The translations under genes were made by a program, and so were the position numbers. Below are positions 3,093 to 19,773 of a DNA stretch of 20,000 bases, one piece after another. Positions within the stretch are counted from its first letter, which is position 1; the number at the start of each line of letters is the position of its first letter. Source of the DNA: Chromera velia (taxonomy: Eukaryota; Sar; Chromeraceae); NCBI GenBank assembly GCA_018398765.1, contig JAHBMJ010000616.1:1-20000 (forward strand), written 5' to 3'. The notes under the pieces were generated by a model. That model searched no databases. It worked only from the letters and a program-made list of their open reading frames with translations, and was not told where the DNA came from.

Positions 3093-4312
3093 TTAAGAAG
3101 GCACAAGCCTGAAGGAGTTCATGTACTGCTCGGCCTCCACGGGCGAGCGAGAAAAGAAAATTCCAACCTCCAAGGGGCTTGCTCCTGGAACCAACCAGCT
3201 CCTGAGCCTTCCGAGTACTGTCTCCCTCGAGACTCTGAGCAGACCTCCATCGTCAACACCAATGTTGCGTGTCTAGGAGTCCCACACCCCCTGGTGGGCA
3301 GAAAAACGAGGAACAGCGTATTTGCCCCCCTTCTCTAAGTACTTTCTGCCCCGCAGGGGAGTCCGATAGAGGGTGCTCTCGAAGTGAGCCCTCAACTTGA
3401 GAGGAAGGGAGGACAAAGGATCCACCAAGGTTCCCTGCATGTCCGATTGAAGGGGATCATGATGGGGTATCTGCCGGAGGCGCTCCAGACCTGGAGTGGT
3501 ATCCAGGATTCCCATCCGCCACGCCTCTACAAGTGACACGTCGTGGAGGTCCCTCCCCGTGCCTACCCCTCCTCCGGCTGCTGCGGCCCCTCTGTAGGCC
3601 GAGGATGAGGATGAGGAGCCCTCCCCTATAGTAGCAGCTGCCAATATGCTTGCATCTCCCGTGCCTCCGGTAGTAGCGGGAGGGGGAAGAGCCGCTCTGT
3701 TGTGAGAGGTGCCTCTATGACAGAGCACCGACTCTGTGGGGTCAAACAGGTTCCTGTCCATTGAGAAAGCCCTTCCACTCTATGGCTGCGCAACTGTACG
3801 GCCACGAAGAACCTGCCCAGGGAAGAGATACGGGAAGCCACGGTGTCCTCTCTATTTCGACGTATTAGGGCGATACTTGGCCCCCGTCCCTCCGTTCATG
3901 TCCTGCATCGAGACCCACTCGTACGGACGCACAATCTCCATGTTTCCAAAGGAGTCTACAATTTTGAGGGGCTGGTCCCCCACCCCATCAGGAGCCCACT
4001 TCTTGAAGCCGTGAGGAGGAGACAGCAGCTTCTCCGGATGGACGTTGAAAAACGTAAATCTCTCTTCTCCGTTGGGCTGTCGGGGCTCAACAGGCATACG
4101 ATGCATGACAACCACTACATCATACATCAAGGGGGTGAGGAACTGGACCCAGATCGGATTCCCTCTCATGTTGACCCCGTCACCAAGACTGCTGAGGATG
4201 CTCCAATCGCCGGTCATCCACTTGGGAATCTCGCGCCCCCCGTAGAGAAGCTTAAACGGGGTCCCCCCCGCAGCTTCACTCCATAAACACAGGAGCGTCC
4301 AGCAACCTCCAT
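3093..4312 (-). pseudogene. Decayed protein-coding-like segment, unidentified (possible transposon remnant)
   Basis: A single - strand frame runs from about 4365 to a TAA at 3093-3095 (over 400 codons). Its only interruptions after 4365 are three TAG codons, at 3852-3854, 3780-3782 and 3273-3275. Translation between them has a balanced composition and looks protein-like: a Trp/Tyr/Phe-rich part (roughly 4290-3852), a Ser/Ala/Gly-rich linker (about 3700-3570) and an Arg/Leu-rich tail. The first in-frame ATG is at 4217. A short stretch TPFKLLYGG (about 4260) weakly recalls the xPFxLLYGR stretch of retrotransposon integrases, but the rest does not clearly fit that family. The island is GC-rich with abrupt change to AT-rich flanks on the left. 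I see: the frame and the stops. I infer: a decaying gene or mobile-element piece. I cannot name the protein. Confidence 0.4.
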
Positions 4313-4712
4313 CGCAGGGAACGTTGCTTCTCAGTGTAAAACCTACTCCTATACTAGAATAAACTCATAAAGAATGTCTCCCATCCATATTAAAGCTCTT
4401 TCTGGTGGTCTTGTACAGTGCTGCTGTATAAAGAAACCACAGAGAGCCAAGTATATGGTACATCGACGTTAGGACTACCAGGTCTGGCTAGAACGTCCAC
4501 AAGATATTCGTATATCCTTTGACTCATAGACGTGCACACGATCGAACCGATCGATTAAATTAACGTGCATGGAATGCACGCGGATATGAATGACTTACGC
4601 ATGCACCAAAGACACATTTACGTCTCATATATTGTGCGGCGGCATGTCGTAGCTCACAAAACCGAGTGGGGGTGCGATCGTGGGCGAAAAGATATAGAGA
4701 TATAATCTAATA
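4313..4712. other. Intergenic stretch, nothing recognised
   Basis: About 400 bases between the decayed coding-like island and the inverted-repeat element. I see no open frame with protein-like composition, no RNA gene and no clear repeat. Confidence 0.4.
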
Positions 4713-6447: not shown

Positions 6448-7111
6448 ATGTCGTCTACCCGCTCGGCCGCTTTGTTTCTGCTCCCGTTTCTCCGAGCAGC
6501 TCTGAGCACGACGTACCCCCCGGTGGGCATCGGTGCTGCCCACACATGGACGAAAAGTGCTTCTACGTGGGGCGGTCAGATGACCACTTTTAAGGCCTCT
6601 TCAGCAGACCCGAACTGCGCGGGTAACTGGAGCGTTTACACGATCTCCAACTGGAAGGGAAACACCGGCTCCTTCACCTGGGACAGCGCTAGCGAGTCGC
6701 CGTCTGCAGGCGCCTTTGACAGAACCGTCGGGACCCCTTCGCTCACAACGTCGATGTGGATCACCGCAACGCACCAGCCGGGAAATTCCGGGCCCGATGG
6801 TGGAGTGGAGCTCGCCTTCGGGGCGCCGTGCAGTTTCACACTGACCCATTACACGATCAAAGCACGCGGAGACCACTCCGACGGCACCACCCAGTCCCCC
6901 AGCAAGATGACCGTCTACGGGTCGAATGACGCCTCCAGTTGGATCGAGATCGGGTCCTTCTCGAATCAGACGACGTGGGCGGTGGGGGAGGAGAAGACAT
7001 TTCCGGCCACAGCGGGGGGCGCGTACGCCTGGTTCCTCTTCAGGGGACACCGGGTGGCACAGACAAGCCCAGCGCCCATGTCGGTCTCTGACATCTGGGT
7101 CCATCCTCTTG
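6448..7111 (+). CDS. Exon 1: signal peptide and discoidin-like (F5/8 type C-like) domain
   Basis: Starts at ATG 6448 and ends in phase 1 at CTTG|GTGGGT (221 codons plus one base). Residues 1-20 form a typical signal peptide (basic start, hydrophobic ALFLLPFL core, Ala-Leu-Ser before the likely cut). The rest resembles the galactose-binding-like fold of F5/8C domains. Near residues 151-171 is PSKMTVYGSNDASSWIEI, matching the family's Pro-x-x-(Trp/Phe/Met)-x-(Leu/Val)-x-Gly-Ser-(Asn/Asp)-Asp-x-x-x-Trp signature. It is followed by an aromatic strand (AYAWFLF) and a final VSDIWVHPL strand near residues 212-221, where F5/8C domains have an (I/V)x(E/D)(L/I)x strand. Cysteines are at 57 and 128. Such domains usually bind glycans or lipids; the ligand here is unknown. 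A start at in-frame ATG 6310 would add 46 residues and bury the signal peptide. Intron 1 (488 nt) has a short CTTC-rich run near 7350 and a poly-G run near 7490, nothing else recognised. Confidence 0.85.
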
Positions 7112-7599
7112 GTGGGTCGGTCGGTGAGCTTTGGTTTGTGTGAATTGGGTACAGATCGATGCTTGCGTATAGATAGAGGCTTTTTACAAATTAGTTGCGG
7201 GGGGCTGTCTGTCTTGCAATTTGCCAAACTGAGGCATGAACTCCGTGTTCTTGTAGTTCACTCACTAACAACAGAGGTTCTCTGGTAGGCCCCTTTCAAG
7301 AAATATTTTAGAACGAGTTCTTTCCAAGCCAGGACATTTGGGAGGTTGTTTCCTTCCTTTCTTCCTTCCATTCACTCAATCGCTCGTCCTTCTTCCAAGT
7401 TCCCGTCTATCCCTGCTTGTGTGCACCTTTATCTCTTAGAGAGCGTGTACACGCGGATGCTCTACGGCATGCAGTCACAGACGAGAATAGGGGGGGGGGA
7501 CGGGACAAGTCGCGCACAATTCTGGCATGCACGTACTTTCAATCCATTTGCATGTTTGCATGTGTGTGCATTGCAATGTACACGCTTGCTTGCTTGCAG

Positions 7600-7725
7600 T
7601 GGGGGACGAATGTGCAGGCGGAGGGGGGCACAACTGCCACGCCAACGCCGCCTGCCTGGACACATTCTTCAGCTTCACCTGCGCCTGCAACGGGGGATTC
7701 TCTGGAGACGGGATCGTCTGCACAA
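7600..7725 (+). CDS. Exon 2: EGF-like module 1
   Basis: Acceptor TTGCAG|TGGGGG, donor ACAA|GTCAG. Translation VGDECAGGGHNCHANAAC then CLDTFFSFTCAC and CNGGFSGDGIVC: six cysteines in EGF spacing. It fits the Asp/Asn beta-hydroxylation pattern C-x-[DN]-x4-[FY]-x-C-x-C. It is the most divergent of the N-terminal EGF copies (Gly-Asp-Glu lead-in, 42 codons). Intron 2 (7726-8201) holds the ATTC/ATTT-rich and CA/CG repeats listed separately. Confidence 0.85.
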
Positions 7726-7829
7726 GTCAGCCAGGCAGCCAGGTTAGAGGCACGGTGTACGAGTGCCTCAATTCCCTTCGGATCTCAAATGAGCTTCCAC
7801 TTCACGGGTTGAGTCCAAGAGCCAGGCCG

Positions 7830-7928
7830 CATTCATTTCTTCATTCACTCATTCATTTATTTATTCATCCATCCATTTATTCATTTGCACACACAAACAC
7901 ACACACACACGCGCGCGCGCGCGCGCGC
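7830..7928 (+). repeat. Intron 2 microsatellites: (ATTC/ATTT)n then (CA)n(CG)n
   Basis: Imperfect tetranucleotide units (ATTC, ATTT, ATCC) run from about 7830 to 7887. They are followed by an alternating purine-pyrimidine tract, CA-rich at 7888-7910 (one CAAA break) and pure GC at 7911-7928. The latter is a classic Z-DNA-prone sequence. Confidence 0.9.
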
Positions 7929-8201
7929 CTGCACTGTCTATATCACACTTAGGTCAATTGGCAGTCCACGGCACTGCCTGCAAGTTGCAAGTCGCAGATG
8001 GAAGCGGAAGAAAAACGATGGTTGTGAGCTGGAGTGCTTGCGCTGCCATATCGAACGAAGCTGGCTGTACTGCACAGGACAGAAGCGGGCCGGGATATCA
8101 TTGAAATCGTCAGAGTCACGCGCCTTCTTTGACTTTTTTGCACCCAGAAAAAAGTACTCTCTTTTGCTTTTGCGCCGCCTTACTTGCGTGCATGTGTGCA
8201 G

Positions 8202-8324
8202 ACATCAACGAGTGCTCCACCGGTGCCCACAACTGCCACTCCAACGCCACCTGTACAGATCAGGTCCCCTACTTTGGTTGCGCCTGCAACGGGGGATTCT
8301 CAGGAGACGGGGTGACTTGCGCGA
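8202..8324 (+). CDS. Exon 3: EGF-like module 2 (type A)
   Basis: Acceptor TGTGCAG|ACATC, donor GCGA|GTGAGT, 41 codons. After splicing the first codon is A+AC (Asn), giving NINECSTGAHNCHSNATC, then TDQVPYFGCAC and NGGFSGDGVTC. The N-x-N-E lead-in plus the C-x-D-x4-F-x-C-x-C motif is the calcium-binding EGF signature. A sequon (NAT) precedes Cys3. The exon is identical to exon 9 apart from one base (AAC versus AGC, Asn versus Ser). Intron 3 (8325-8734) has no recognised content. Confidence 0.9.
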
Positions 8325-8734
8325 GTGAGTCCGTGCGTGAGTAAGTCAAAGAAGTGGGGGATTGCATTTGGATGGACCGAGGACGAATCCTAATCTTAGA
8401 GCAAGGCACAAATATTCGGCCCCTCCTTAAAATCAATTATTCTGCATGCCTTCGTGACAACTTTATAACTGCTGAGGTGTTCATTTGGTCGCTCCAATTC
8501 TTTGACAGGTCATCTCTATTGCCCCCTCATTATTATTCTTAGCGACTGTTGGTACAAAAAAACAATAGCAAACACTCTAAACCGCGTGACCAAAAAACCA
8601 GCAGCCCATGTTCAGACAACACAGCCTCGCCAGGAAGCCTGAAAGCTCCCGATTTGCCCACTTGTTTCTGAACTTTTCCGGTTCTGCATGGACGGACGGA
8701 TCTGGAAGCGTGCTCTATTCATGCATGCATGCAG

Positions 8735-8857
8735 ACATTGACGAGTGCTCCACCGGTGCCCACAACTGCCACTCCAACGCCACCTGCACAGACGAGGCCC
8801 CGTTCTGGAGCTGTGCGTGCAACGGGGGATTTTCAGGAGACGGGGTGACATGCACGA
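8735..8857 (+). CDS. Exon 4: EGF-like module 3 (type B)
   Basis: Acceptor ATGCATGCAG|ACATTG, donor ACGA|GTGAGT, 41 codons. The spliced lead-in is NIDEC. The Cys3-Cys4 loop reads TDEAPFWSC, so a Trp sits where the Asp-hydroxylation pattern calls for Phe/Tyr. Otherwise it is near-identical to exons 8 and 10. The donor lies at the start of a (GTGA)n run listed separately. Confidence 0.9.
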
Positions 8858-8890
8858 GTGAGTGAGTAAGTGAGTGAGTGAGTGAGTGAG
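8858..8890 (+). repeat. (GTGA)n repeat beginning at the intron 4 donor
   Basis: GTGA/GTAA tetranucleotide units start exactly at the splice donor, so the donor word GTGAGT is reiterated every 4 bases. Use of the first site is required to keep phase 1; read-through meets an in-frame TGA almost at once. Confidence 0.9.
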
Positions 8891-9106
8891 AGGTCCCAGC
8901 CCTGTGCTGGTCACATGAAGGTACAGAACAGCATAGAAGATCGAGGGAAGGTATGCCAAGGGTTTCACAAGAAAAACATTTCGGGAATACAACGAAAGAA
9001 ACGAAGACCGTTCTTGCGATGAAAACCGTATCAGACGGCTCTCCGAATTCTCCATATTTTTGGGCGCCTCTGCATGCAAACTCAAAGCATGTATGCATGT
9101 GTGCAG

Positions 9107-9229
9107 ACATCAACGAGTGTTCCACCGGTGCCCACAACTGCCACTCCAACGCCACCTGTACAGATCAGGTCCCCTACTTTGGCTGCGCTTGCAACGGGGG
9201 ATTCTCAGGAGACGGGGTGACTTGCGCGA
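9107..9229 (+). CDS. Exon 5: EGF-like module 4 (type A)
   Basis: Acceptor TGTGCAG|ACATC, donor GCGA|GTGAGT, 41 codons. The protein is identical to module 2, and differences from exon 3 are synonymous (TGC/TGT, GGC/GGT, GCT/GCC). It carries the calcium-binding lead-in and the hydroxylation motif. Intron 5 (9230-9622) shows nothing recognisable. Confidence 0.9.
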
Positions 9230-9622
9230 GTGAGTCTATCAGTCAGAATGTCTATTCAATTCCGACCCCCAAAACGTGAGAGGCTAGAAGAAGCACAGGG
9301 AAGCACAAGGTTTTGAACAATTCATTTCCCCACTCTTGTCCTAGGGCGGTCTCTTCAGTCAGCCTATGAACCCAAAGAGAAGCTTTCTCAATTTGATTTG
9401 TCCCTCCCAAGCATCTTTCTTACAAACAAGCAAGAGAGCAGAGAAGCAGACATCATCAGATGACTGACAGAAGGGGCTGCCCGCTCCAAAGATAGCCAGG
9501 CATCAAGCACAGCAGCGAAAACCCCTTTCAGTCATGCCTGAAAGTTTGCTTGGCATAACGACTCGCGTTCTGGTTTCAAATCAAAACCCGTCTTTCTGCC
9601 CGACTTGCGTGCGTATGTACAG

Positions 9623-9745
9623 ACATCAACGAGTGCTCCACCGGTGCCCACAACTGCCACTCCAATGCCACCTGCACAGACGAGGCCCCGTACTGGAGCT
9701 GTGCGTGCAACGGGGGATTCTCAGGAGACGGGGTGGCGTGCTCAA
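9623..9745 (+). CDS. Exon 6: EGF-like module 5 (type B)
   Basis: Acceptor GTACAG|ACATC, donor CTCAA|GTGAG, 41 codons. The Cys3-Cys4 loop is TDEAPYWSC and the module ends GDGVAC. Six EGF cysteines and an NAT sequon are present. Intron 6 (225 nt) is short. Confidence 0.9.
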
Positions 9746-9970
9746 GTGAGTGCGTGTTCCAGTCAGAGGATTGATTAGTACATCCAAATATAAAACTTCA
9801 GACTTATAAAGGATGTCAACAAAAAAACATGCGCACAAACACGCGCACACACGTATGTGCGTAGGATCAACGATTCCATTTCTTCTGCATGGAACATGTG
9901 CTTGATTGCTTGCTTCATACTGTATTGGCTTGAAGTTTCCTGTCTGTTGTTCTGTCCTGCTTGCGTACAG

Positions 9971-10093
9971 ACATCAACGAGTGCTCCACCGGTGCCCACA
10001 ACTGCCACTCCAACGCCACCTGCACAGATCAATTGCCCTTCTGGAGCTGTGCGTGCAACGGGGGATTCTCAGGAGACGGGGTGTCGTGCGCGA
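9971..10093 (+). CDS. Exon 7: EGF-like module 6 (type A/B intermediate)
   Basis: Acceptor GTACAG|ACATC, donor GCGA|GTGAGT, 41 codons. The loop TDQLPFWSC combines the type A Gln with the type B Phe-Trp-Ser, and the module ends GDGVSC. It looks like a chimera of the two EGF subtypes. Intron 7 (10094-10522) contains a (CT)n tract close to the acceptor. Confidence 0.9.
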
Positions 10094-10441
10094 GTGAGTC
10101 TGTAGCAGTCAGAGCTCGAACGGTGGATGTTTTGCAAGCTTCTTGCAAAGGAAATTGGTCAAGTCTGAGATAAATTTACTTTTCCTGAGCGCACTTGCTT
10201 GCCTGCATGCTACTTTTGAAACGGAGAGTACATTCATTCAGTGAGTCAGATCGGATGCTCATCACAGCGCCGTCGTCTCCGGTATGCGGCCGCCGTCCGT
10301 TGCTTCCTTTTTCGTCCTGCCTCTCAGCTTGCAACATGCATACCAACGATATCGAGCCATCTGAGCTCTCCGAACATTCGATTGATCGCATGAGTGAGAT
10401 TTGAAAAAACTTGTTGCAACACAATCAACGGGAAAATCATG

Positions 10442-10445
<4 letters not shown>

Positions 10446-10477
<32 letters not shown>
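10446..10477 (+). repeat. (CT)n microsatellite in intron 7
   Basis: Sixteen uninterrupted CT units about 45 bases upstream of the exon 8 acceptor. They could serve as an extended polypyrimidine tract. Confidence 0.9.
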
Positions 10478-10479
<2 letters not shown>

Positions 10480-10522
10480 TCCCGGCTTTGTGCCTCTTTT
10501 TCTCCTTTGTGGATGCATGCAG

Positions 10523-10645
10523 ACATCAACGAGTGCTCCACCGGTGCCCACAACTGCCACTCCAACGCCACCTGCTCAGACGAGGCCCCGTTCTGGAGCT
10601 GTGCGTGCAACGGGGGATTCTCAGGAGACGGGGTGACATGCACAA
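10523..10645 (+). CDS. Exon 8: EGF-like module 7 (type B)
   Basis: Acceptor GCATGCAG|ACATC, donor ACAA|GTAAGT, 41 codons. The loop is SDEAPFWSC, with Ser for the usual Thr after Cys3. About five base differences from exon 4. The intron starts GTAAGTCAGTCAGTC, again a donor-linked tetranucleotide run. Intron 8 is 286 nt. Confidence 0.9.
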
Positions 10646-10931
10646 GTAAGTCAGTCAGTCAATGGGTCGAAATCATTTCTTTCCAGAAAAATTTACACAG
10701 AGCAAGACAGACAGTCCGACTCTACTCATTGCATGACTACGCGCATCTGAATTTTCTGCTCGCTTCGTACTGAATTTTCGTCTTTTAGTGCCGACCGAAA
10801 AATTCCGTCTGTTGACTTGCCTTCCATGTATGTGCGCGCGCCTTGGTGTGAGCGGAAGTGCTTGGACACAGCCACGGTTACCCAAAGGCTTTCTCCAATG
10901 TGTCGGTCTATTCATGCGTGCATGTGTGCAG

Positions 10932-11054
10932 ACATCAACGAGTGCTCCACCGGTGCCCACAACTGCCACTCCAACGCCACCTGTACAGATCAGGTCCCCT
11001 ACTTTGGTTGCGCCTGCAGCGGGGGATTCTCAGGAGACGGGGTGACTTGCGCGA
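10932..11054 (+). CDS. Exon 9: EGF-like module 8 (type A)
   Basis: Acceptor TGTGCAG|ACATC, donor GCGA|GTGAGT, 41 codons. One nonsynonymous change from exon 3 (CSGGF instead of CNGGF). The first bases of the flanking introns also match exon 3 (GCGTGCATGTGTGCAG upstream, GTGAGTCCGT downstream) before similarity ends. Intron 9 (11055-11541) carries an (AATC)n run. Confidence 0.9.
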
Positions 11055-11405
11055 GTGAGTCCGTCCGGGAGTCCTCTGGATTCGGAAATCATTTTGTCTG
11101 ACTGAATCCATTTGACTTCAGTCGATACAGTCTTCATTTTGTCGTACCTGCTCTGGAACATGTCCTTGATTGTCCCTTTGTGACTGCAGGCGCGTTGAAT
11201 GTAACCGAAGATGAGATTTAAAACAAAAACAAAAACAGAGAAAGAGCGTTCACCAGATGGGTCACTCACTGATCAAGAAAGCGCCATGCAGTCGGTTACC
11301 GCTTCCCAAAAAAGGACGCCCATGCAGCTGCTGAAGAGGCGAGAAAAATTTGCAGTTTACTGGCGACAGACAAATGTAGCGGGAAAGCCCTAGGGCGGAA
11401 CACAT

Positions 11406-11438
<33 letters not shown>

Positions 11439-11442
11439 ATCA
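11406..11442 (+). repeat. (AATC)n microsatellite in intron 9
   Basis: About nine AATC units, the last with a T-to-G change (ATCGATC). Confidence 0.9.
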
Positions 11443-11541
11443 AACCCAATTTATCCACCTGCTGCCTTATGCTGCTATGCCCTGCTCGGTCACGTGTACA
11501 TGATTGGTTTCTGTTGCCCCACCACACGTGCCGCCCTGCAG

Positions 11542-11667
11542 ACATCAACGAGTGCTCCACCGGTGCCCACAACTGCCACTCCAATGCCACCTGCACAGAC
11601 GAGGCCCCGTTCTGGAGCTGTGCGTGCAACGGGGGATTCTCAGGAGACGGAGTTTCCTCTTGCTCAG
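11542..11667 (+). CDS. Exon 10: EGF-like module 9 (type B)
   Basis: Acceptor CTGCAG|ACATC, donor CTCAG|GTGGG, 42 codons. The loop is TDEAPFWSC. The extra codon comes from a GVSSCS end shared with exon 12. The last exon base is G, so the next module starts with Asp (GAC), not Asn. Intron 10 is 215 nt, the shortest seen. Confidence 0.9.
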
Positions 11668-11882
11668 GTGGGCCCTCCCAGCGAAGAAAGACAGAAGACG
11701 GACTGGCTATTAATCCGGGAGGGGAAGAGTCTTCATTGTGGTGTTGAATCGATGGGTGAATGAAATCTTGCTCGCATCGCACTGCTCACTGCAATTTCGA
11801 TTTGTATTGACAGAAAATTTGTCTAGCTTGTTGTCCCTTGGTACCTACCGCTCCGTCTGTGCGTGCGTCAACGTGCCTGCAG

Positions 11883-12005
11883 ACATTGATGAGTGCTCCT
11901 CGGGGACCCATAATTGCCACTCCAACGCCAACTGCACGAAGCAGGTCCCTTATTTCAACTGTGCATGCGACGGGGGATTCTCAGGAGACGGGGTGACGTG
12001 CTCAA
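11883..12005 (+). CDS. Exon 11: EGF-like module 10 (divergent)
   Basis: Acceptor CCTGCAG|ACATTG, donor CTCAA|GTGAG, 41 codons. The lead-in is DIDECSSGTHNC and the loop CTKQVPYFNC, with Lys where the hydroxylated Asp/Asn should be, so this copy should not be hydroxylated there. The NCT sequon overlaps Cys3. It shares the type A loop otherwise. Confidence 0.9.
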
Positions 12006-12009
12006 GTGA

Positions 12010-12048
<39 letters not shown>
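12006..12048 (+). repeat. (GTCT)n repeat at the intron 11 donor
   Basis: The donor GTGAG is followed directly by about nine GTCT units. Intron 11 (12006-12529) also has ATTC/CAGT-rich words near 12165-12210; nothing else is recognised. Confidence 0.9.
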
Positions 12049-12529
12049 AGAAAGTCGACGAGTCCATTTGAAGAGTCGGTTTGTCAGGGTAAACCACTGC
12101 AGCCCCCTTGCCATTCGCTCGCGTGATTGCCTGCAACCATAAGCAGTAAATCGGCTTCACGATTCATTCATTCACTCATGCATTCATTCCTTCAGCCAGT
12201 CAGTCAGATACACAGTTGAGTTGAGCGATGTCCCGAGCTTGGGTATCGGTGCCAGAGCACTTCCAGTGAAGGTCAGAGAGAACATCAAGAAGCAAAAAGC
12301 AGGCAACAAGGGAGTCATCCAAAACAGAAAACTTCTTTCCGCCTGAAAAAAAAAAGCAGCCAGTAAAGAGAAAAGGAAGCCAACTCGTCTGTCTTAACTC
12401 ACTCAGACTGTGCTCCTCATCTTCAGAGTCGGCAAGATTGCGTGTCAATTGAGCTGTCTCTTCGCATTCAAATTGATTGGCTGAATTCTGCTGTCTGCAT
12501 TTTGCTCCGCCCCACATGGCACCTTACAG

Positions 12530-12655
12530 ACATCAACGAGTGCTCCACCGGTGCCCACAACTGCCACTCCAACGCCACCTGTACAGATCAGGTCCCCTAC
12601 TTTGGCTGCGCTTGCAACGGGGGATTCTCAGGAAACGGAGTTTCCTCTTGCTCAG
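12530..12655 (+). CDS. Exon 12: EGF-like module 11 (type A)
   Basis: Acceptor CTTACAG|ACATC, donor CTCAG|GTGGG, 42 codons. The type A loop TDQVPYFGC is combined with the GVSSCS end seen in exon 10. GNG replaces GDG before Cys6. The combination of a type A body with an exon 10 end looks mosaic. Intron 12 (12656-13420, 765 nt) is the longest and holds no recognisable extra module. Confidence 0.9.
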
Positions 12656-13395
12656 GTGGGTGCAGAGGGGGAGGGACAAGAGTCTGAGGTAGCCTCTAGT
12701 GGGCGGCTGGAAGTTTTTTGTGGTTCCTAGACATTTGCGTCTCGTATTTGACTCACAAACGTGTGCCAGTCGCGTTCTCTGTTCCGGTTCTTCGGCGATG
12801 CATGTGCTTCTTCCTTGTCTCTGCTTTCTGCCCATTTTTTCTCTGCCAGCCTCCCCCCTGTTTCTGTCCGAGTTTTGTTCTTTGCAACCAGTTGATTTTG
12901 GAAATCAGAGGGGAGAGTCTACCCGAGACACAGAGCTAGGGGAAGGAGAGGAGGCAGCAGAAGGCATTCATGGCAGATTGCTTCACAGACGGCATGATGT
13001 GCGATTCTCCTGAGCATTCGAAGCCTTGGTTCAACCCTTTCTGGTCGAAGGCATACACATTTGCTTTCCTGTGCTTCTCACAGAATGTGAAGGGACAAAG
13101 GCAGAATGGGGCATCCAGGGGAACGGAAGAATGAGCTAACGGCATCTAGCCGATCGAAGAAATAAATTAGTGGCAAAGGACTCGGCAGACGCGGAAGAAA
13201 TGACAGGCAGTGACGAGCCAGAGAAGGATGCATGGACAGGGGAGCAGGCAGACTGATGCGGTAAGCTCTAGGTTTTCGTATGGGATTTTGGATTGGAAAC
13301 ATCAATCGATGAGGTGGATCTTCACTCCCAACATCAGTCAGTCAGTCTCTTTGTCCACTCTCACCCATTCCCTGTCATACGACGGACAACAAGAG

Positions 13396-13644
13396 TGCCT
13401 GTCTGCCTGTGTGCCTGCAGACATCGACGAATGCTTCACAGGGGCCCACAACTGCGCCCCCGAGGCCAACTGCACCAACCAGGTTCCCTTCTGGGACTGT
13501 GTGTGCGATCACGGGTACTCATGGAACGGGACAGCGTGTGCAGGTGAGTGAGTGAGTGCGTGAATCCGTCAGCTAGATGAGTCAGTCAGTCAGCTAGGAC
13601 AGCGAGACCTGCACAGATCGATCGGCAGACAAGTGTCATCAACA
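13396..13644 (+). repeat. Segmental duplication copy 1 (exon 13 and flanks)
   Basis: This segment matches 14596-14844 at a constant offset of exactly 1,200 bases with only a handful of substitutions. It spans the end of intron 12, all of exon 13 and the first ~100 bases of intron 13. Similarity stops abruptly at both edges. Confidence 0.9.
13421..13543 (+). CDS. Exon 13: EGF-like module 12 (type C)
   Basis: Acceptor CCTGCAG|ACATC, donor GCAG|GTGAG, 41 codons. It reads DIDECFTGAHNCAPEANC, then TNQVPFWDCVC and DHGYSWNGTAC: a distinct EGF subtype with Asn in the hydroxylation position and a Trp in the aromatic one. Exon 15 is its near-identical duplicate, differing by Phe/Ser after the first Cys. 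Intron 13 (13544-14135) has CAGT/ATTC-rich stretches near 13575-13600 and 13690-13780. Confidence 0.9.
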
Positions 13645-14135
13645 CGCACTGTTTGTGTGACCGACTTCGAACTGCATTTTCGTGAATTCATTCAATCTTT
13701 AGTTCACTCATTCATTTTTCATCCACTGTTTCATTTATTCAATCAGTCGGTGAGTCAGTCAGTCAGTCAATCAGTTCGTTTCAGACTTTCAGTCATTCCT
13801 CAATCAGTCGAAGTCCTTGTCGACGCAACTTGGCCTTATGCGGCGTGCCTTCTCGGTCCGGTTCTTCTTCTTTTTTTCTGTCCCAAAAGTCTGCAATGAT
13901 GCAGAATATTGCACGAATGGAGAGAAATGACCACGAGAAGAGCAGTCGTTATTGAGTGCTTCAATTGAACCAGAACCCCTTAGTTGATTGGAGTAGCAGG
14001 AAACTCGGTACGATTTTTTCTGAAAGCATTTTGCCGAGCTGTTGTTGCACTTCCCCTGGCTTTCCTACTATCTCTGGTCTTTCTTGGACGTAGATGAAAA
14101 TGTTCGAGACTTCCGGTACGGACGTCTGCATGCAG

Positions 14136-14258
14136 GTATCGATGAGTGCTCCACTGGAGCGCACAACTGTGACGCCAACGCCGCGTGCACAGATCAATCG
14201 CCCTTTTGGGCCTGTGCGTGTAACGGGGGCTATTCCGGAGACGGGTTTTCGTGCTCTG
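14136..14258 (+). CDS. Exon 14: EGF-like module 13
   Basis: Acceptor ATGCAG|GTATCGATG, donor TCTG|GTGGGT, 41 codons. The split codon G+GT makes Gly, giving GIDEC, so the first calcium ligand is lost. The loop is TDQSPFWAC and the end GDGFSC. It is the only acceptor here followed by GT, and exon 14 lies inside the spacer between the two copies of the 249-bp duplication. Intron 14 (362 nt) is unremarkable. Confidence 0.85.
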
Positions 14259-14595
14259 GTGGGTGCGGTGGGCGAGGGCGGAGCATCAAAGACGAAAAGA
14301 ATCTCGATTATTGATCGGCTTTCTTGTGAAATCCGTGAGCATCTTCCTTTGTTCCTTTGGCGGTTGAATGCTGAAATTCCGCAGTCTAGTCTGCTGGATT
14401 GATTTTCCCTTCTGGAAAGAAATTTGTCCCCCCTACGGGTAGGACCAGAAATGGGTGATGCAACCGCTTGGACTATTTGATTGTCCCCTGAAGAGTCGGG
14501 GTCATCTCTGTCTTGTGCTCAGCTCAATTCACGATCTGGCTGCTCACTCTCTTTCTGCATGTGACGCCTCTGTCTGAATTCTTCGTCCAGTCACC

Positions 14596-14844
14596 TGCCT
14601 GTCTGCCTGTGTGCCTGCAGACATCGACGAATGCTCCACAGGGGCCCACAACTGCGCCCCCGAGGCCAACTGCACCAACCAGGTTCCCTTCTGGGACTGT
14701 GTGTGCGATCACGGGTACTCATGGAACGGGACAGCGTGTGCAGGTGAGTGAGTGAGTGCGTGAATCCGTCAGCTAGATGAGTCAGTCGGTCAGCTAGGAC
14801 AGCAAGACCTGCAGAGATCGATCGGCAGACAAGTGTCACCAACA
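14596..14844 (+). repeat. Segmental duplication copy 2 (exon 15 and flanks)
   Basis: Near-identical to 13396-13644. Differences I can see: TCC/TTC in the exon and a few single-base changes in the intron (CAGTCGG/CAGTCAG, CAGCAAG/CAGCGAG, GCAGAG/GCACAG, CACC/CATC). Such low divergence, introns included, implies a recent event. Confidence 0.9.
14621..14743 (+). CDS. Exon 15: EGF-like module 14 (type C, last EGF)
   Basis: Acceptor CCTGCAG|ACATC, donor GCAG|GTGAG, 41 codons. Same protein as exon 13 except Ser for Phe after Cys1. Intron 15 (14744-15193) contains a GGAAGGAAG-rich purine run near 14900-14955 and marks the switch from EGF to sushi-like modules. Confidence 0.9.
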
Positions 14845-15193
14845 AAACCCACAGAAGGAATGGGACGGCGTGTAGAGGTGGGATGGCCGCAGGGGGGGTC
14901 AGGGCAGGGGAAGGGAGGGAGAGAAACGAGCATGAAGGAAGGAAGGAAGAAAGGAATGTGGGTGGAGTGGCGTTGTCTTCTGCTGATAGACAAACAAGAA
15001 GTTGTGTGTGCTTCTTCCCGGTGACCGGCTAAGTTATTTCCTTCCTGCGGTCTACCTGCCCAACAACTGTTTTCTTTTCTCTCTGAAGATCAGCTACCCC
15101 TTCCAACGTACAGCTGCTGAGAAGCCAGAATTTTGCCGCACTTGCACGCATTTTTTAAGATTTGATCGCGACGGTCTATGCATCTGATTGCAG

Positions 15194-15481
15194 CTGCCGA
15201 GTGCCACCCGGACGACTCGCAGCCCAACGCAGGTGTTTGCGATTTTGGTTGCACCGACTGGACTCGCCAGCACCTTTTGAGTCTTGTCAGCAGGCCGGGG
15301 AAAGAGCCCACGGGCACAACAAGTCTCTGGTCTTACACTTGCTTCAGCGGGTTTCAGCTTGACCAAGCCGACCGCGTATGGGGCGTGAACGTCGTCGATG
15401 ACGTGAACTTCACGTGCACAGGGACCGGACCCGGAACTTCGGAGTGGCAACTTGGAGGGGGGACGATGGCGTCGTGCTCTG
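15194..15481 (+). CDS. Exon 16: sushi/CCP-like module 1 (enlarged)
   Basis: Acceptor GATTGCAG|CTGCC, donor CTCTG|GTGTG, 96 codons. It starts AAECHPDDSQPN like the later modules (xCN..xDPQPN) and has the SYTCFSGF, VNFTCTGT and SEWQ...ASC elements of the family. About 20 residues longer than modules 3-8, with an extra cysteine pair (GVCDFGC) near its residues 16-20, giving six cysteines rather than four. Intron 16 (388 nt) holds nothing recognised. Confidence 0.8.
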
Positions 15482-15869
15482 GTGTGTCGCCATTCTGTGT
15501 CTGTCTATGCATATGCAGATATTTATTTGCAGCAGGCAACGCGGGTTCTGCATGGCCTTCTCGCGTTTTCTTTTTTTTTTCGCTTTTCCGGAGGTTTCAG
15601 GAGGACGTTTTTTGTGATCGACTCATGAATTCAAGGGATCTTGATGCGTACATGTGTATGTCAGGGAGAGTGCCTGTTGAATTCTCTCTCGAACACACAG
15701 GTCCGGCCACCCGAACGATGGATGCCTTGTCAGTATTTTTTGCCTTGAATGAGCGAATGCCGTCCCGAGAGAGTGAATGAATGACTCCAATGCGTTGGAT
15801 GGAGTCCTTTCAGTGAAGCGACGGGGGTTCGTCCGTGCCAATTACACTCACATACAAGGATGGATGCAG

Positions 15870-16127
15870 CCGTGGCCTGCAATGAGACGACAGACTCAGG
15901 AACGTTTTCTCCCAACAGCTTCGACTTCAGTCGGGGCTTTCGGGTCAACTTTGGACAGACTGGCCAAACTTTCAATACCGCAACGTTCAGATTCGGATGC
16001 TTCGACGGCTTCGGTCTGAAGTCTTTCGGATCCAACCGAGCTCAGAATTCAAGCTTTACCGGTACATGCACGGCCAGAGCATATGGAAGATCCGAGTGGA
16101 CGATCGCCTTCTTCCCCACATGCGAGC
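15870..16127 (+). CDS. Exon 17: sushi/CCP-like module 2 (divergent)
   Basis: Acceptor GATGCAG|CCGTGG, donor GAGC|GTGAG, 86 codons. It reads AVACNETTD, then FGQTGQTFNTATFRFGCFDGF, SFTGTCTARAY and RSEWTIAFFPTC: the four sushi cysteines with divergent linkers. It is the only exon ending in C before the donor, which makes the next split codon Pro. Intron 17 (349 nt) carries the CT/GT repeats. Confidence 0.8.
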
Positions 16128-16401
16128 GTGAGTAGGTGCTTTGAGTCGCTAGCTTCTGACTTGATCTCTTACTTCCCCTAACTGATTGCCACGGTGATCG
16201 TTTACGTCCTCTGACTCTAAAGTGAACGGGTCTTTCTTCGATCGGCTGGCCACAGCCTTGAGGGAATTACAGATGATTCGGATAGACCAGTGCATACACA
16301 AACATTTCCCTCTATCGTTTTGTTTTCTGCCGCAAACATCGATTTTCACAATGCAGACTGCCTGCCGGTCTGATTGCGTCCATTCATGCAGGGCAATCCA
16401 C

Positions 16402-16404
<3 letters not shown>

Positions 16405-16464
<60 letters not shown>
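16405..16464 (+). repeat. (CT)n(GT)n compound microsatellite in intron 17
   Basis: A pure CT run (16405-16432) followed by TTT and a pure GT run (16437-16464). It ends about 12 bases before the exon 18 acceptor and so occupies the polypyrimidine-tract position. Confidence 0.9.
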
Positions 16465-16466
<2 letters not shown>

Positions 16467-16476
16467 GTGCCTGCAG

Positions 16477-16698
16477 CCGCCAACTGCAATCAGGCGAGCG
16501 ACCCCCAGCCGAATGCTCTGACTGCTCAGGTGATCCGAACAAACACCCCGACCGGAAGCACCAACGCGGCACGGGACTTTGTTTACAGCTGTAACGATGG
16601 GTGCCAACTTGTTGGTCCAGGAAGTGTAAACTTCAGATGCACTGCGCTAGCGTATCGGTCGTCCGAGTGGCAGGGGGGGGAGCTGCCTAATTGCACAG
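16477..16698 (+). CDS. Exon 18: sushi/CCP-like module 3, with GC donor
   Basis: Acceptor CCTGCAG|CCGCC, donor ACAG|GCAAGT, 74 codons. It reads PANCNQASDPQPNALTAQV, then FVYSCNDGC, VNFRCTAL and SEWQGGELPNC. The phase-1 boundary after the last Cys falls on GC rather than GT; AG|GCAAGT is the classical strong GC donor. Unlike its siblings the module has Cys where the conserved Tyr of DGY lies, leaving five cysteines. Intron 18 (401 nt) has T-rich and CT-rich stretches only. Confidence 0.8.
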
Positions 16699-17099
16699 GC
16701 AAGTTGTGTATTCTTTGTATTCGATGATCTTGTTCTCTGTTTTTCTTGCTTGTTTTTCTTGTTTGTTTTGTCTTCTGTTTCCTTCTTGTTCTTTCCGTGC
16801 CTGAAGGGATGTGAGGTAAAACGGTTTTCAGGCTGTTGTGGACTCCCCGCCATCCCTCTCTCGCCCTCTTGTCCCCCTTCTGTCCTCCTTCTGTCCCCCT
16901 CTCCATTTTTTTCCCCTGCTGCATCAGCCACTCGCACTTCTGGTCTTTTCCGCCCAATCTTTCTTTCGTTCAGCCCGAGTCTTTCGTCTACCTTCTTGCG
17001 GCCCCTTCTTTTTGGATTGTGAGTCGACGAGTCTGCACCAGGAATTTCGTGGGTCATAGAGTCTTTTGCTGTGCTCCGTTCTCTTATTTCGTCATCCAG

Positions 17100-17324
17100 A
17101 TGTCTCCTGCAACGAATCAACGGACCCTCAGCCAAACACCCTCACTGCTGAGGTCGTTCGAACCAACTCGGGACAGACAGGCAACACCACGCAGACGGCA
17201 GCCTTCAACTATAGCTGCAACGACGGGTACTCTTTGAACAGTCCGGTCTCGTCAGTGATTTTCACATGCACAGGAACGGCATACGCGCAATCTCAGTGGC
17301 AGGGGTCCCCTCCAACGTGCTCAG
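17100..17324 (+). CDS. Exon 19: sushi/CCP-like module 4
   Basis: Acceptor ATCCAG|ATGTC, donor CTCAG|GTGAG, 75 codons. It reads DVSCNESTDPQPN, then NTTQTAAFNYSCNDGYSL, IFTCTGTAY and SQWQGSPPTC, a clear four-cysteine sushi pattern with Tyr-x-Cys, Gly-Tyr, Phe-x-Cys and Trp...Pro-x-Cys. NTT is a possible N-glycosylation site. Intron 19 (442 nt) holds nothing recognised. Confidence 0.85.
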
Positions 17325-17766
17325 GTGAGATCGATCGATTAGTTTTTTCTCTTTCTCGCTCAAAGAGATCGAGAAACCATCCGTCAACTTGAGTTCATTG
17401 AGTCTTGAAGAGAAAAAATGAAAGCTTGCGGACGGCTGTCCAAGAAAGCACGCAGCTTGCTTGTCAGACTTGTGTGAGTGCGTTTCGATTAGGATGAAAA
17501 CAGCGCTTACCTTCCTCAGACGAAGATTTGTGGGATACACATGATGTATCTATCGCAGTTGCCCGCCCTGCTGTTCTGATCCACTTAAGGAGGTTGAAGC
17601 AGTCGATTACGATTTCTTTACGACTTTCACCCCCTTTGTCACCGGGAGAGCGCGACCATGGCAGCTTTTTTCTTTTCAATATCTGCGTGCTCATGCCTCT
17701 TTTTCCATGTACTCAAAAAGCTCTCGGTTTCCTTTTTTTCCATGCGTTCGCTCTTTGACGTTGCAG

Positions 17767-17991
17767 CGGCCTCCTGCAATCAGGCAATCGACCCGCAGCC
17801 GAACGCCCTCACAGCTGAAGTAGTCAGGACCGACTCTGCACAGGCAGGTGTTACGAGCCAGACAGCAGCGTTCTCCTACAGCTGCAACGATGGGTATCAG
17901 CGTGTCGGCTCAGGCAGTGTCGTCTTTACCTGCACGGGTACCGCATACGGATCTTCGGAGTGGCAGGGCGGCAGTGTGCCCACTTGCTCTG
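17767..17991 (+). CDS. Exon 20: sushi/CCP-like module 5
   Basis: Acceptor GTTGCAG|CGGCC, donor CTCTG|GTCAGT, 75 codons. It reads AASCNQAIDPQPNALTAEV, then FSYSCNDGYQRV, VFTCTGTAY and SEWQGGSVPTC. Closest in layout to modules 3, 4, 6 and 7. The donor lies at the head of a (GTCA)n repeat. Confidence 0.85.
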
Positions 17992-18033
17992 GTCAGTCAG
18001 TCAACCAGTCAGTCAGTCAGTCAGTCAGTCAGT
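17992..18033 (+). repeat. (GTCA)n repeat beginning at the intron 20 donor
   Basis: The donor is the first GTCAGT of about ten GTCA units with one ACCA break. The rest of intron 20 has a (GGGA)n run at 18175-18192 and no other recognised content. Confidence 0.9.
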
Positions 18034-18358
18034 CAGGAGGAGCGGATGATACTCGCAACTGCACGAGCCGACGCAGGTGAGAGCTAGAGAGAGAAGATTG
18101 TTGGTGGCAACAAAACTGCATGCATGCACGGTCAGCCTGAATCCTCATGCATTTATTCATTCATTTTCTTTGAGAGGGAGGGAGGGAGGGAGTCTTTGGA
18201 CGGAACTGCAAGGTCACTCTCAACTGTTCGACGAATGCCCTCAGGATAGCTAATCGCCTTCAAGAGAACTAAGCGTACAAAATATCAAAAACGGAAGCAG
18301 CGCCATCGTTCACACGACCCGAAAAAAGCCCACCGGTCGCCTCTCTTCCTGCCTGCAG

Positions 18359-18583
18359 CGGTCTCCTGCAACGAAGCAACCGACCCTCAACCCAACACCC
18401 TCGCGGCTGAGGTCGTTAGAACGGACTCAGGCCAGGCAGGCGTCACCACCCAGACCGCAGTCTTCACCTACACGTGCAACGATGGATACGCACTCGACAC
18501 TCCCGAGAACGCCGTCAACTTCACATGCACAGGGACAGCCAACGCGGCGTCGGCTTGGCAGGGCTCCCCTCCTACGTGCTCAG
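18359..18583 (+). CDS. Exon 21: sushi/CCP-like module 6, expected donor is AT not GT
   Basis: Acceptor CCTGCAG|CGGTC, 75 codons to the phase-1 point after CTCAG. It reads AVSCNEATDPQPNTLAAEV, then VFTYTCNDGYAL, VNFTCTGTAN and SAWQGSPPTC, so the protein-coding body is intact. At the expected donor the sequence is CTCAG|ATGGGC, where sibling exons have CTCAG|GTGGG or CTCAG|GTGAG. A single G-to-A change at position +1 would explain it. Reading on gives 20 codons to TGA at about 18644. There is no alternative in-phase GT before that stop. Skipping the exon would keep the frame. Confidence 0.65.
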
Positions 18584-19059
18584 ATGGGCCGCATGCGACT
18601 GCACGCCCTGAGCGGCAGGGCACTCTTGCAGACTCAGTCCGATGAATTCTTCAGCTGATTCTATCTTTTGTTTTCGAAGGGCCTGAGCGATTCTGTGATG
18701 AAAGAGAAAGAAAGTCCTCGATTGAGGGATGGATCGGATCGGATCGGTCTTTTTCTTGTGCCGTTTGTTTTTGTTTTTCACGTGTGTTCGACAGAAAAGG
18801 AAAACAAAATGTGAGACGGTAGGAAAGGCAGTGAGAAAACAAAAACTTCCACATACAGAATTGGTGCTTACTTCATCTCAAGTGTAGCCAGCAAGTCTAC
18901 TGTTCCACGGCATTGGACAGACTAGTCGGAGCTGTCTTTCTGTAGGTGCAGATATGTCAAATTCGGGTTTTTGTCTCCGCTTTTGTTTTTTGGACTGCAT
19001 ATATCTCTCTGCTGTTTTCTCTCTTACCTACCGACTCGGCCGTGCGTCTATCTGCGCAG

Positions 19060-19287
19060 CCGTTTCTTGCAACTCAACAACCGACCCTCAACCTAACGCC
19101 CTCACTGCTGAGGTCGTCAGAACGGACCATGGACAGACAGGCGTGACTACCCAGACGGCAGTTTTTACCTACAGCTGCAACAGCGGTTTCGCTCTCGTCG
19201 GTCCTCCTACAGTGACCTTCTCCTGCACAGGGACGGCCTACACAGCCTCGGAGTGGCAGGCGGTTCAGGCGCCTCCCATTTGCTCGG
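19060..19287 (+). CDS. Exon 22: sushi/CCP-like module 7
   Basis: Acceptor GCGCAG|CCGTT, donor TCGG|GTCAGT, 76 codons. It reads AVSCNSTTDPQPNALTAEV, then VFTYSCNSGFAL, VTFSCTGTAY and SEWQAVQAPPIC. Phe replaces the Tyr after Gly, which is tolerated. Its split first codon is Ala (GCC) whether the upstream exon is 20 or 21, so exon 21 could be omitted cleanly. Intron 22 is 261 nt. Confidence 0.85.
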
Positions 19288-19548
19288 GTCAGTCAGTGCT
19301 TTGAAATTGAAACCGTATCATTCATGGGTTTTGCCTCCTGAATTCCTTTCGTTTCCTTTCCTTTCCCTTTTCATCTGTTCGGAATTCCCTTCGACGTGCC
19401 AGAGTTGTCGAATGCCTATGTTCAAATCAACTCTTTGTTTTTTTCTCGCTCTCTCTGTAGAGCTGCAGTTGCATGCGAAACAGCGCGGCGGTGGACCAAT
19501 GAAAAAACCTCGATCACTTGATTTGCCTTCCCCCCTTTTTCGACTCAG

Positions 19549-19773
19549 CCGCCGTCCCCTGTAACGAGACTCTCGACGCACAGCCCAACAATTTGACTGT
19601 TGAAGTCGAGAGAAGAAACTCTGGGCAGACCAGCAGCACCGGAGACTCCGCACTCTTCAAGTACGGCTGCAGCGTGGGCTTTCAGTTGGACAGCGCAGCG
19701 AACGTCACTTTCGTTTGCACGGGCGATACCTACGGGACCTCTTCGTGGAAGGGAAGTCCTCCTACCTGTTCAG
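19549..19773 (+). CDS. Exon 23: sushi/CCP-like module 8 (last in window)
   Basis: Acceptor ACTCAG|CCGCC, donor TTCAG|GTGCG, 75 codons. It reads AAVPCNETLDAQPNNLTVEV, then LFKYGCSVGFQL, VTFVCTGDTY and SSWKGSPPTC. NLT and NVT are possible N-glycosylation sites. The donor shows that the gene continues past the right edge; 19774-20000 is the start of intron 23 and shows only CT-rich sequence at the very end. Confidence 0.85.

Follow-up and report, generated by a model that had tools for sequence, protein, structure and literature searches.

Symmetric class 1-1 module exons in a putative adhesin-like gene of the chromerid Chromera velia

The first 20,000 nucleotides (nt) of contig JAHBMJ010000616.1 in the Chromera velia assembly GCA_018398765.1 (forward strand; this whole stretch is called the window here) carry the beginning of a gene in which a first exon is followed by 22 exons, each with a single EGF or CCP/sushi-like domain. 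The question raised by this locus is how an exon layout familiar from animal extracellular proteins came to stand in the genome of an alveolate. Here it is proposed, as the probable answer, that class 1-1 exons were duplicated and shuffled through their introns, as happens in animals, and that the window gene and its siblings arose in this way within an alveolate. Recombination inside phase-1 introns would add, remove or move single domains and leave the reading frame intact; the window gene and many genomic siblings would have grown by the duplication and shuffling of such symmetric exons, and copies within a gene would be kept alike by conversion confined to exons. The proposal draws on the exon anatomy of the gene, the phase found across domain classes, the contrast with myosin genes, the varied module orders along contigs and the identity of exons without that of their introns.

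Exon anatomy and domain identity

The sequence-only reading had placed all 22 complete introns in phase 1 and had described all 22 module exons as multiples of three. Both statements are borne out by the exon anatomy (Table 1), with the proviso that the intron after CCP6 needs an AT donor. On the plus strand, exon 1 is followed by 14 EGF and eight CCP/sushi-like exons of 123-288 nt each, with an AG acceptor in 22/22 and a length divisible by three in 22/22, and the concatenated exons give a stop-free frame of 1430 codons. Phase 1 is found at every complete intron from exon 1 to module 22, and each of the 22 modules has its own exon with introns of the same phase on both sides, as in class 1-1 exon-module proteins.

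The donor sites are regular in 20 of the 22 complete introns (GT-AG) and deviate in two, one GC-AG after CCP3 (16699) and one AT-AG after CCP6 (18584). GC donors of the GCAAGT type are a usual minor form. From the last Cys of CCP6 up to the following stop at 18643, GT occurs once, at 18637 and in phase 0, and phase 1 after CCP6 therefore depends on accepting the AT site. AT also stands at the expected phase-1 donor of two further modules, a CCP (L088, match C613:10660-10812) and a TSP1 (L109, match C1595:7807-7956), and the bases after AT remain donor-like in all three. A pattern for the end of CCP exons has 69 genome matches when followed by GT, against 3 with the pattern reversed, and 7 when followed by AT, against none reversed; two of these seven are the CCP6 and L088 exons. 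The AT donors could reflect a rare type of AT-AG intron or sites that have decayed.

That any combination of modules could be skipped in frame was also claimed from the sequence, and in silico skipping agrees with it, as a stop appeared in 0/22 single-exon skips and in 0/2000 random exon subsets. The locus may yield splice isoforms by in-frame skipping. A further-reaching explanation, that the symmetric exons serve combinatorial splicing and give many receptor isoforms, as with Dscam or the LRR receptors of brown algae, draws on the same result, on the AT (CCP6) and GC (CCP3) donors, which might weaken splicing there, and on splice variants of brown algal ROCO genes with one-LRR exons, described in passages of PMC11378527, where Dscam is mentioned as well. 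However, any 1-1 array gives in-frame skipping as a by-product, and EGF2-EGF9 together with EGF11 have 82-99% DNA identity, so most skips would alter the length of the protein more than its binding surface. This explanation is considered unlikely.

Domain identity was sampled with Pfam in three of the 14 EGF exons and six of the eight CCP exons of the window, while CCP5 was scored in the genome search. EGF_3 exceeded its curated cut-off in the three sampled EGF exons. Sushi (PF00084) exceeded its cut-off in three of the six sampled CCP exons, stayed below it in CCP8 and gave no hit in CCP1 and CCP2; CCP5 passed in the genome search. Four cysteines and one tryptophan are common to all eight CCP exons in the alignment.

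Exon 1 has a signal-peptide-like start, called by eye, and a domain that was assigned to the beta-sandwich fold of the Discoidin / F5/8 type C / CBM32 superfamily. The window copy missed the Pfam cut-offs of this superfamily (E values 0.081 and 0.99), and its paralogues had a Pfam match in four of eight cases (best 2.3e-4), all below cut-off. With exon 1 as a single sequence, the structure model reached a predicted local distance difference test (pLDDT) score of 38.8, and the PDB search gave two matches only, at E 0.9. Searched as a profile, the discoidin-like module had one PDB match, to a bacterial enzyme, and none to an animal sequence, although its fold neighbours include discoidin domains of animals. 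As part of the proposed explanation, a discoidin/CBM32-like domain of the sugar-binding type is the likely identity of exon 1.

The same matches bear on whether modules and introns came from an animal or from an older common ancestor, in which case the 1-1 layout would be homologous with that of metazoans and not independent. The EGF intron sits just before an Asp/Asn-Ile-Asp/Asn-Glu-Cys start, which is also where animal calcium-binding EGF exons begin, and among solved structures one EGF module matches animal proteins best (NELL2, NELL1, uromodulin and Notch), in a PDB that is biased towards animals. The bacterial match of the discoidin-like profile speaks against such a source, even with animal domains as fold neighbours, and animal or ancestral inheritance is regarded as doubtful.

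Again as part of the proposed explanation, the window probably holds the 5' part of a gene whose product is a large adhesin-like protein, either secreted or anchored in the membrane, and this product would act in adhesion or ligand binding. A candidate end, which may belong to this gene, lies 2.5 kb past the window and consists of a membrane-spanning segment and an acidic tail. Pfam matched no family in this putative tail or in three upstream open reading frames (ORFs).

Intron phase in the host genome

A textbook metazoan layout could simply mean that the contig is animal, or a contaminant, and the gene an ordinary animal one. Against this, the assembly contains alveolin (IMCp; 11 matches, with one of 14 control genomes also matching), CPW_WPC (14 matches, 0/14 controls) and light-harvesting (LHC; 58 matches, with one matching control, a cyanobacterium) families. 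Photosynthesis together with CPW-WPC proteins marks an alveolate as a chromerid and not an animal, which supports the protist host suspected from the sequence. A PDB search with a neighbouring protein of mitochondrial appearance gave two weak matches (E 0.02 and 1) and no taxonomic lead. The module family is also widely spread, since 40 DNA matches to one EGF exon comprise 12 on C615 and 28 over 15 other contigs. On these alveolate and light-harvesting families and on this spread, with the contigs assumed to come from one organism, animal or contaminant origin was rejected as highly improbable.

The layout is not peculiar to the window gene, and class 1-1 modules are present at many other loci of the 177.8 Mb assembly (4040 contigs). 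The EGF survey started from the best matches (150 of 1379 candidates scored, 30 loci taken) and counted an exon as exact when the first Cys codon followed AG by exactly 11 bases and GT followed the last Cys codon by exactly 4. Outside the window, 79/108 motifs found by motif search were exact 1-1 EGF exons, on 18/25 contigs, in comparison with a chance of about 0.4%, by base frequency, for AG and GT at both offsets. The proportion was 41/64 in loci chosen by profile only and 38/44 in loci chosen by DNA likeness, the latter picked with a query stretch that included 20 intron bases.

Other domain classes behave in the same way. For sushi outside the window (one match on each of 20 contigs, 20 of 109 listed), a phase-1 acceptor was found in 16/20, a phase-1 donor in 17/20 and both in 14/20; for TSP1 (24 of 78 listed matches, on 12 contigs), the corresponding values were 17/24, 15/24 and 14/24. 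The discoidin-like domain of exon 1 is a large repeat family, with 150/150 scored sequences matching among 363 candidates. Seventeen copies were looked up, and among the 10 that lay in examined loci, a phase-1 donor-like site occurs 10-25 nt past the match in nine, and a donor-like site of another phase was also present in five of the 10. At the start of these copies, a phase-1 acceptor-like site was found in 4/10 (one also has a phase-0 site) and none near the start in 6/10. Phase 1 is therefore found in several unrelated domain types, exactly in EGF, CCP and TSP1 and by donor-like sites only in the discoidin-like domain. Because unrelated classes obey the same phase, their modules could be joined in any order.

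Myosin served as the phase control. The 12 confident introns of the myosin heads, in four genes, fall in phases 0/1/2 as 5/1/6. Phases were read at junctions between adjacent profile matches and kept where the alignment length fitted exactly; of 17 junctions with a phase call, five were left out for inexact length (phases 2, 0, 0, 0 and 0), and four gaps and one junction without a call stand outside the counts. The splice matrices were trained on EGF introns with intron bases only, and so should not favour a phase. Judged by this split, which covers a single family with four genes, phase 1 does not seem to be the default of the genome, and its frequency in the modules exceeds this background. 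The survey of intron phases in sibling genes that had been suggested for the locus thus returned class 1-1 EGF, sushi and TSP1 exons at many loci, in contrast to mixed phases in the four myosin genes.

At L025 and L063, adjacent EGF modules are fused in one exon, and the phase-1 join sequence is kept where the splice site would stand; it looks as though the intron had been precisely lost or not yet gained. Long discoidin-like arrays, with 11-15 listed copies within ~17-26 kb of a single strand and in many cases EGF modules between them, occur on C3590, C679, C1511, C3927, C3672 and C2903; these probably encode giant surface proteins.

Array growth, conversion and module order

The 22/22 regularity stressed by the sequence-only reading is real; however, the arrays grew in large part by duplication within the gene and not through 22 independent events. 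A reading as 22 independent coincidences was rejected, as the exons are duplicates within arrays and phases within one domain class are not independent. The independent facts are the several unrelated domain classes with the same phase.

EGF2, EGF4 and EGF8 (8202-11054) are only 1-4 of 120 bases apart (97-99% identical); EGF2 and EGF8 differ at 1/120 and EGF2 and EGF4 at 3/120, all synonymous. Beyond ~20 bases, the introns around these three exons resemble each other no more than random pairs do (null mean 0.52, standard deviation 0.09). The same exon-only identity is found on C3462 (99.2%, flanks 0.44 and 0.47) and C57 (98.4%, flanks 0.53 and 0.59). Gene conversion limited to exons would be the simplest account of near-identical EGF exons between unrelated introns. 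The sole long intron stretch shared among the 22 introns flanks EGF12 and EGF14 (101 bases at 96%, and 25 upstream at 100%), and six other intron matches in the window measure 17-55 bases. Shared introns occur as well within the L049 array and, for some pairs elsewhere, on one side.

Two or more module types occur on at least 28 contig strands, in varied orders. CCP stands before EGF on C100, C112 and C3055, after EGF on C57 and C1414, and interleaved with it on C3626; EGF is combined with TSP1 on C3575, and the order discoidin-EGF-CCP is found on C3608.

A simpler history would consist of tandem exon duplication within genes only. Phase-1 flanks would have been acquired once per class, arrays would have formed by unequal exchange with few or no exons moved between genes, and the orders would be due to whole-gene duplication, fusion and loss. 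In line with this, all listed EGF pairs of at least 85% identity lie on the same contig, and the intron sequence common to EGF12 and EGF14, like that of several pairs in the L049 array, is the mark of a segment duplication. Against this history stand the same phase in four domain classes and the position of CCP before, after and between EGF depending on the contig, and old shuffling would show no high identity between genes either. As the sole process, tandem duplication is considered improbable, if less so than combinatorial splicing or animal inheritance. Because the EGF pairs of at least 85% identity are confined to the same contig, the present arrays appear to have grown mostly within genes, and the mosaic, if shuffled, was assembled earlier.

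Several points weigh against the proposed duplication and shuffling. The module orders are coordinates along one contig strand and not transcripts, and may run across gene borders, and the link from the window gene to the membrane-spanning segment spans 2.5 kb of N. In a comparison of 91 EGF exons, 85% identity was never reached across contigs; there is thus no trace of recent movement between genes, and older transfers would escape such a comparison. The myosin control is small and of a single family. Also, 29/108 EGF, 6/20 sushi and 10/24 TSP1 modules are not exact single 1-1 exons, some being fused into longer exons, and 7/25 contigs with EGF motifs have no exact 1-1 exon.

With these points included, duplication and shuffling of class 1-1 exons is still the explanation preferred here, with movement between genes through introns, and conversion as the homogeniser, as its conjectural steps. 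A wider formulation, in which a chromerid has genome-wide interchangeable class 1-1 extracellular exons (discoidin-like, EGF, CCP and TSP1), independent of animals, that build large surface proteins and whose copies are kept alike by exon-limited conversion, is given about even chances.

Known systems and neighbouring sequence

Exon-shuffling events have been described as practically restricted to animal evolution, and parts of the same review call the predominance of class 1-1 mysterious and tie class 1-1 shuffling to the origin of animals (Patthy 2021, PMC8001218). The metazoan class 1-1 proteins, mosaics of EGF, CCP, TSP1 and discoidin, give each extracellular domain an exon of its own between phase-1 introns and combine several domain types in mixed orders behind a signal peptide, as far as sections of that review describe them (PMC8001218). 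The window gene and its siblings resemble them in these respects, with the mixed orders and the signal peptide as probable features. Here, in contrast, the host is a photosynthetic alveolate, and the discoidin-like and some CCP modules are divergent. In the brown algal ROCO genes, every LRR has a 72-bp phase-2 exon to itself, and these genes, in passages of the work describing them (Teng 2024, PMC11378527), share with the present gene a non-animal SAR host, one repeat per exon, a frame-keeping array and dynamic duplication. They differ from it, by the same passages, in their single repeat type (LRR), phase 2 and ROC-COR GTPase proteins, whereas several unrelated extracellular folds, phase 1 and apparently mosaic orders are found here.

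The micronemal adhesins of apicomplexans, a sister lineage, use the same domain vocabulary (EGF, TSP1, sushi and vWA). Apicomplexans have drastically fewer introns, according to part of PMC4501334, whose main text does not treat the exon phases of adhesin genes (the word exon is absent from it). That sushi, EGF, TSP1 and vWA proteins are expanded in chromerids was noted in a passage that gives no data (Woo 2015). Among the matches listed, no open-licence PMC paper was found whose title or abstract start deals with the intron phases of EGF/sushi modules in chromerids or with their shuffling as exons. As far as the literature searched shows, the kind of system is already known, and its lineage, number of domain classes and extent are new.

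If the wider formulation is true, neither animals nor multicellularity are required for the exon-shuffling toolkit known from animals. Another lineage that has this phase bias, among the closest free-living kin of apicomplexan parasites, would be an independent test of whether phase 1 wins through introns landing near signal peptides and AG/G sites or through animal history. Furthermore, it would offer an intron-rich outgroup for tracing the adhesin domains that are present, with few introns, in apicomplexans.

Table 1. Exons of the window gene, in window positions, with E values of Pfam matches where scored.
Exon	Position	Strand	Length (nt)	Class	Remarks
Exon 1	6448..7111	+			ATG at 6448; signal-peptide-like start and ~200-residue discoidin/CBM32-like domain; donor GTGGGT at 7112, phase 1
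EGF1	7600..7725	+	126	1-1	EGF_3 E 1.6e-8
EGF2	8202..8324	+	123	1-1	
EGF3	8735..8857	+	123	1-1	
EGF4	9107..9229	+	123	1-1	
EGF5	9623..9745	+	123	1-1	EGF_3 E 7.3e-11
EGF6	9971..10093	+	123	1-1	
EGF7	10523..10645	+	123	1-1	
EGF8	10932..11054	+	123	1-1	1/120 coding bases unlike EGF2
EGF9	11542..11667	+	126	1-1	
EGF10	11883..12005	+	123	1-1	
EGF11	12530..12655	+	126	1-1	
EGF12	13421..13543	+	123	1-1	flanking intron common with EGF14; EGF_3 E 2.7e-8, EGF_CA E 7.5e-8
EGF13	14136..14258	+	123	1-1	
EGF14	14621..14743	+	123	1-1	flanking intron common with EGF12
CCP1-like	15194..15481	+	288	1-1	longer, divergent; no Pfam hit
CCP2-like	15870..16127	+	258	1-1	divergent; no Pfam hit
CCP3	16477..16698	+	222	1-1	GC donor GCAAGT at 16699
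CCP4	17100..17324	+	225	1-1	Sushi E 6.9e-6
CCP5	17767..17991	+	225	1-1	Sushi above cut-off in genome search
CCP6	18359..18583	+	225		AT instead of GT donor (ATGGGC at 18584); Sushi E 4.5e-5
CCP7	19060..19287	+	228	1-1	Sushi E 4.7e-4
CCP8	19549..19773	+	225	1-1	last complete module of the window; Sushi E 0.002, below cut-off

Upstream of the gene, the window has ~1 kb of low-complexity, pyrimidine-rich sequence (280-1300) and, on the minus strand at 3855-4364, an ORF without a Pfam family that belongs to a dispersed family with 71 matching places in the genome, many of them containing stops; this family looks like a transposable-element remnant. Downstream of the gene, at C615 25561-26088 on the minus strand, there is a small cysteine-rich ORF whose product looks secreted.

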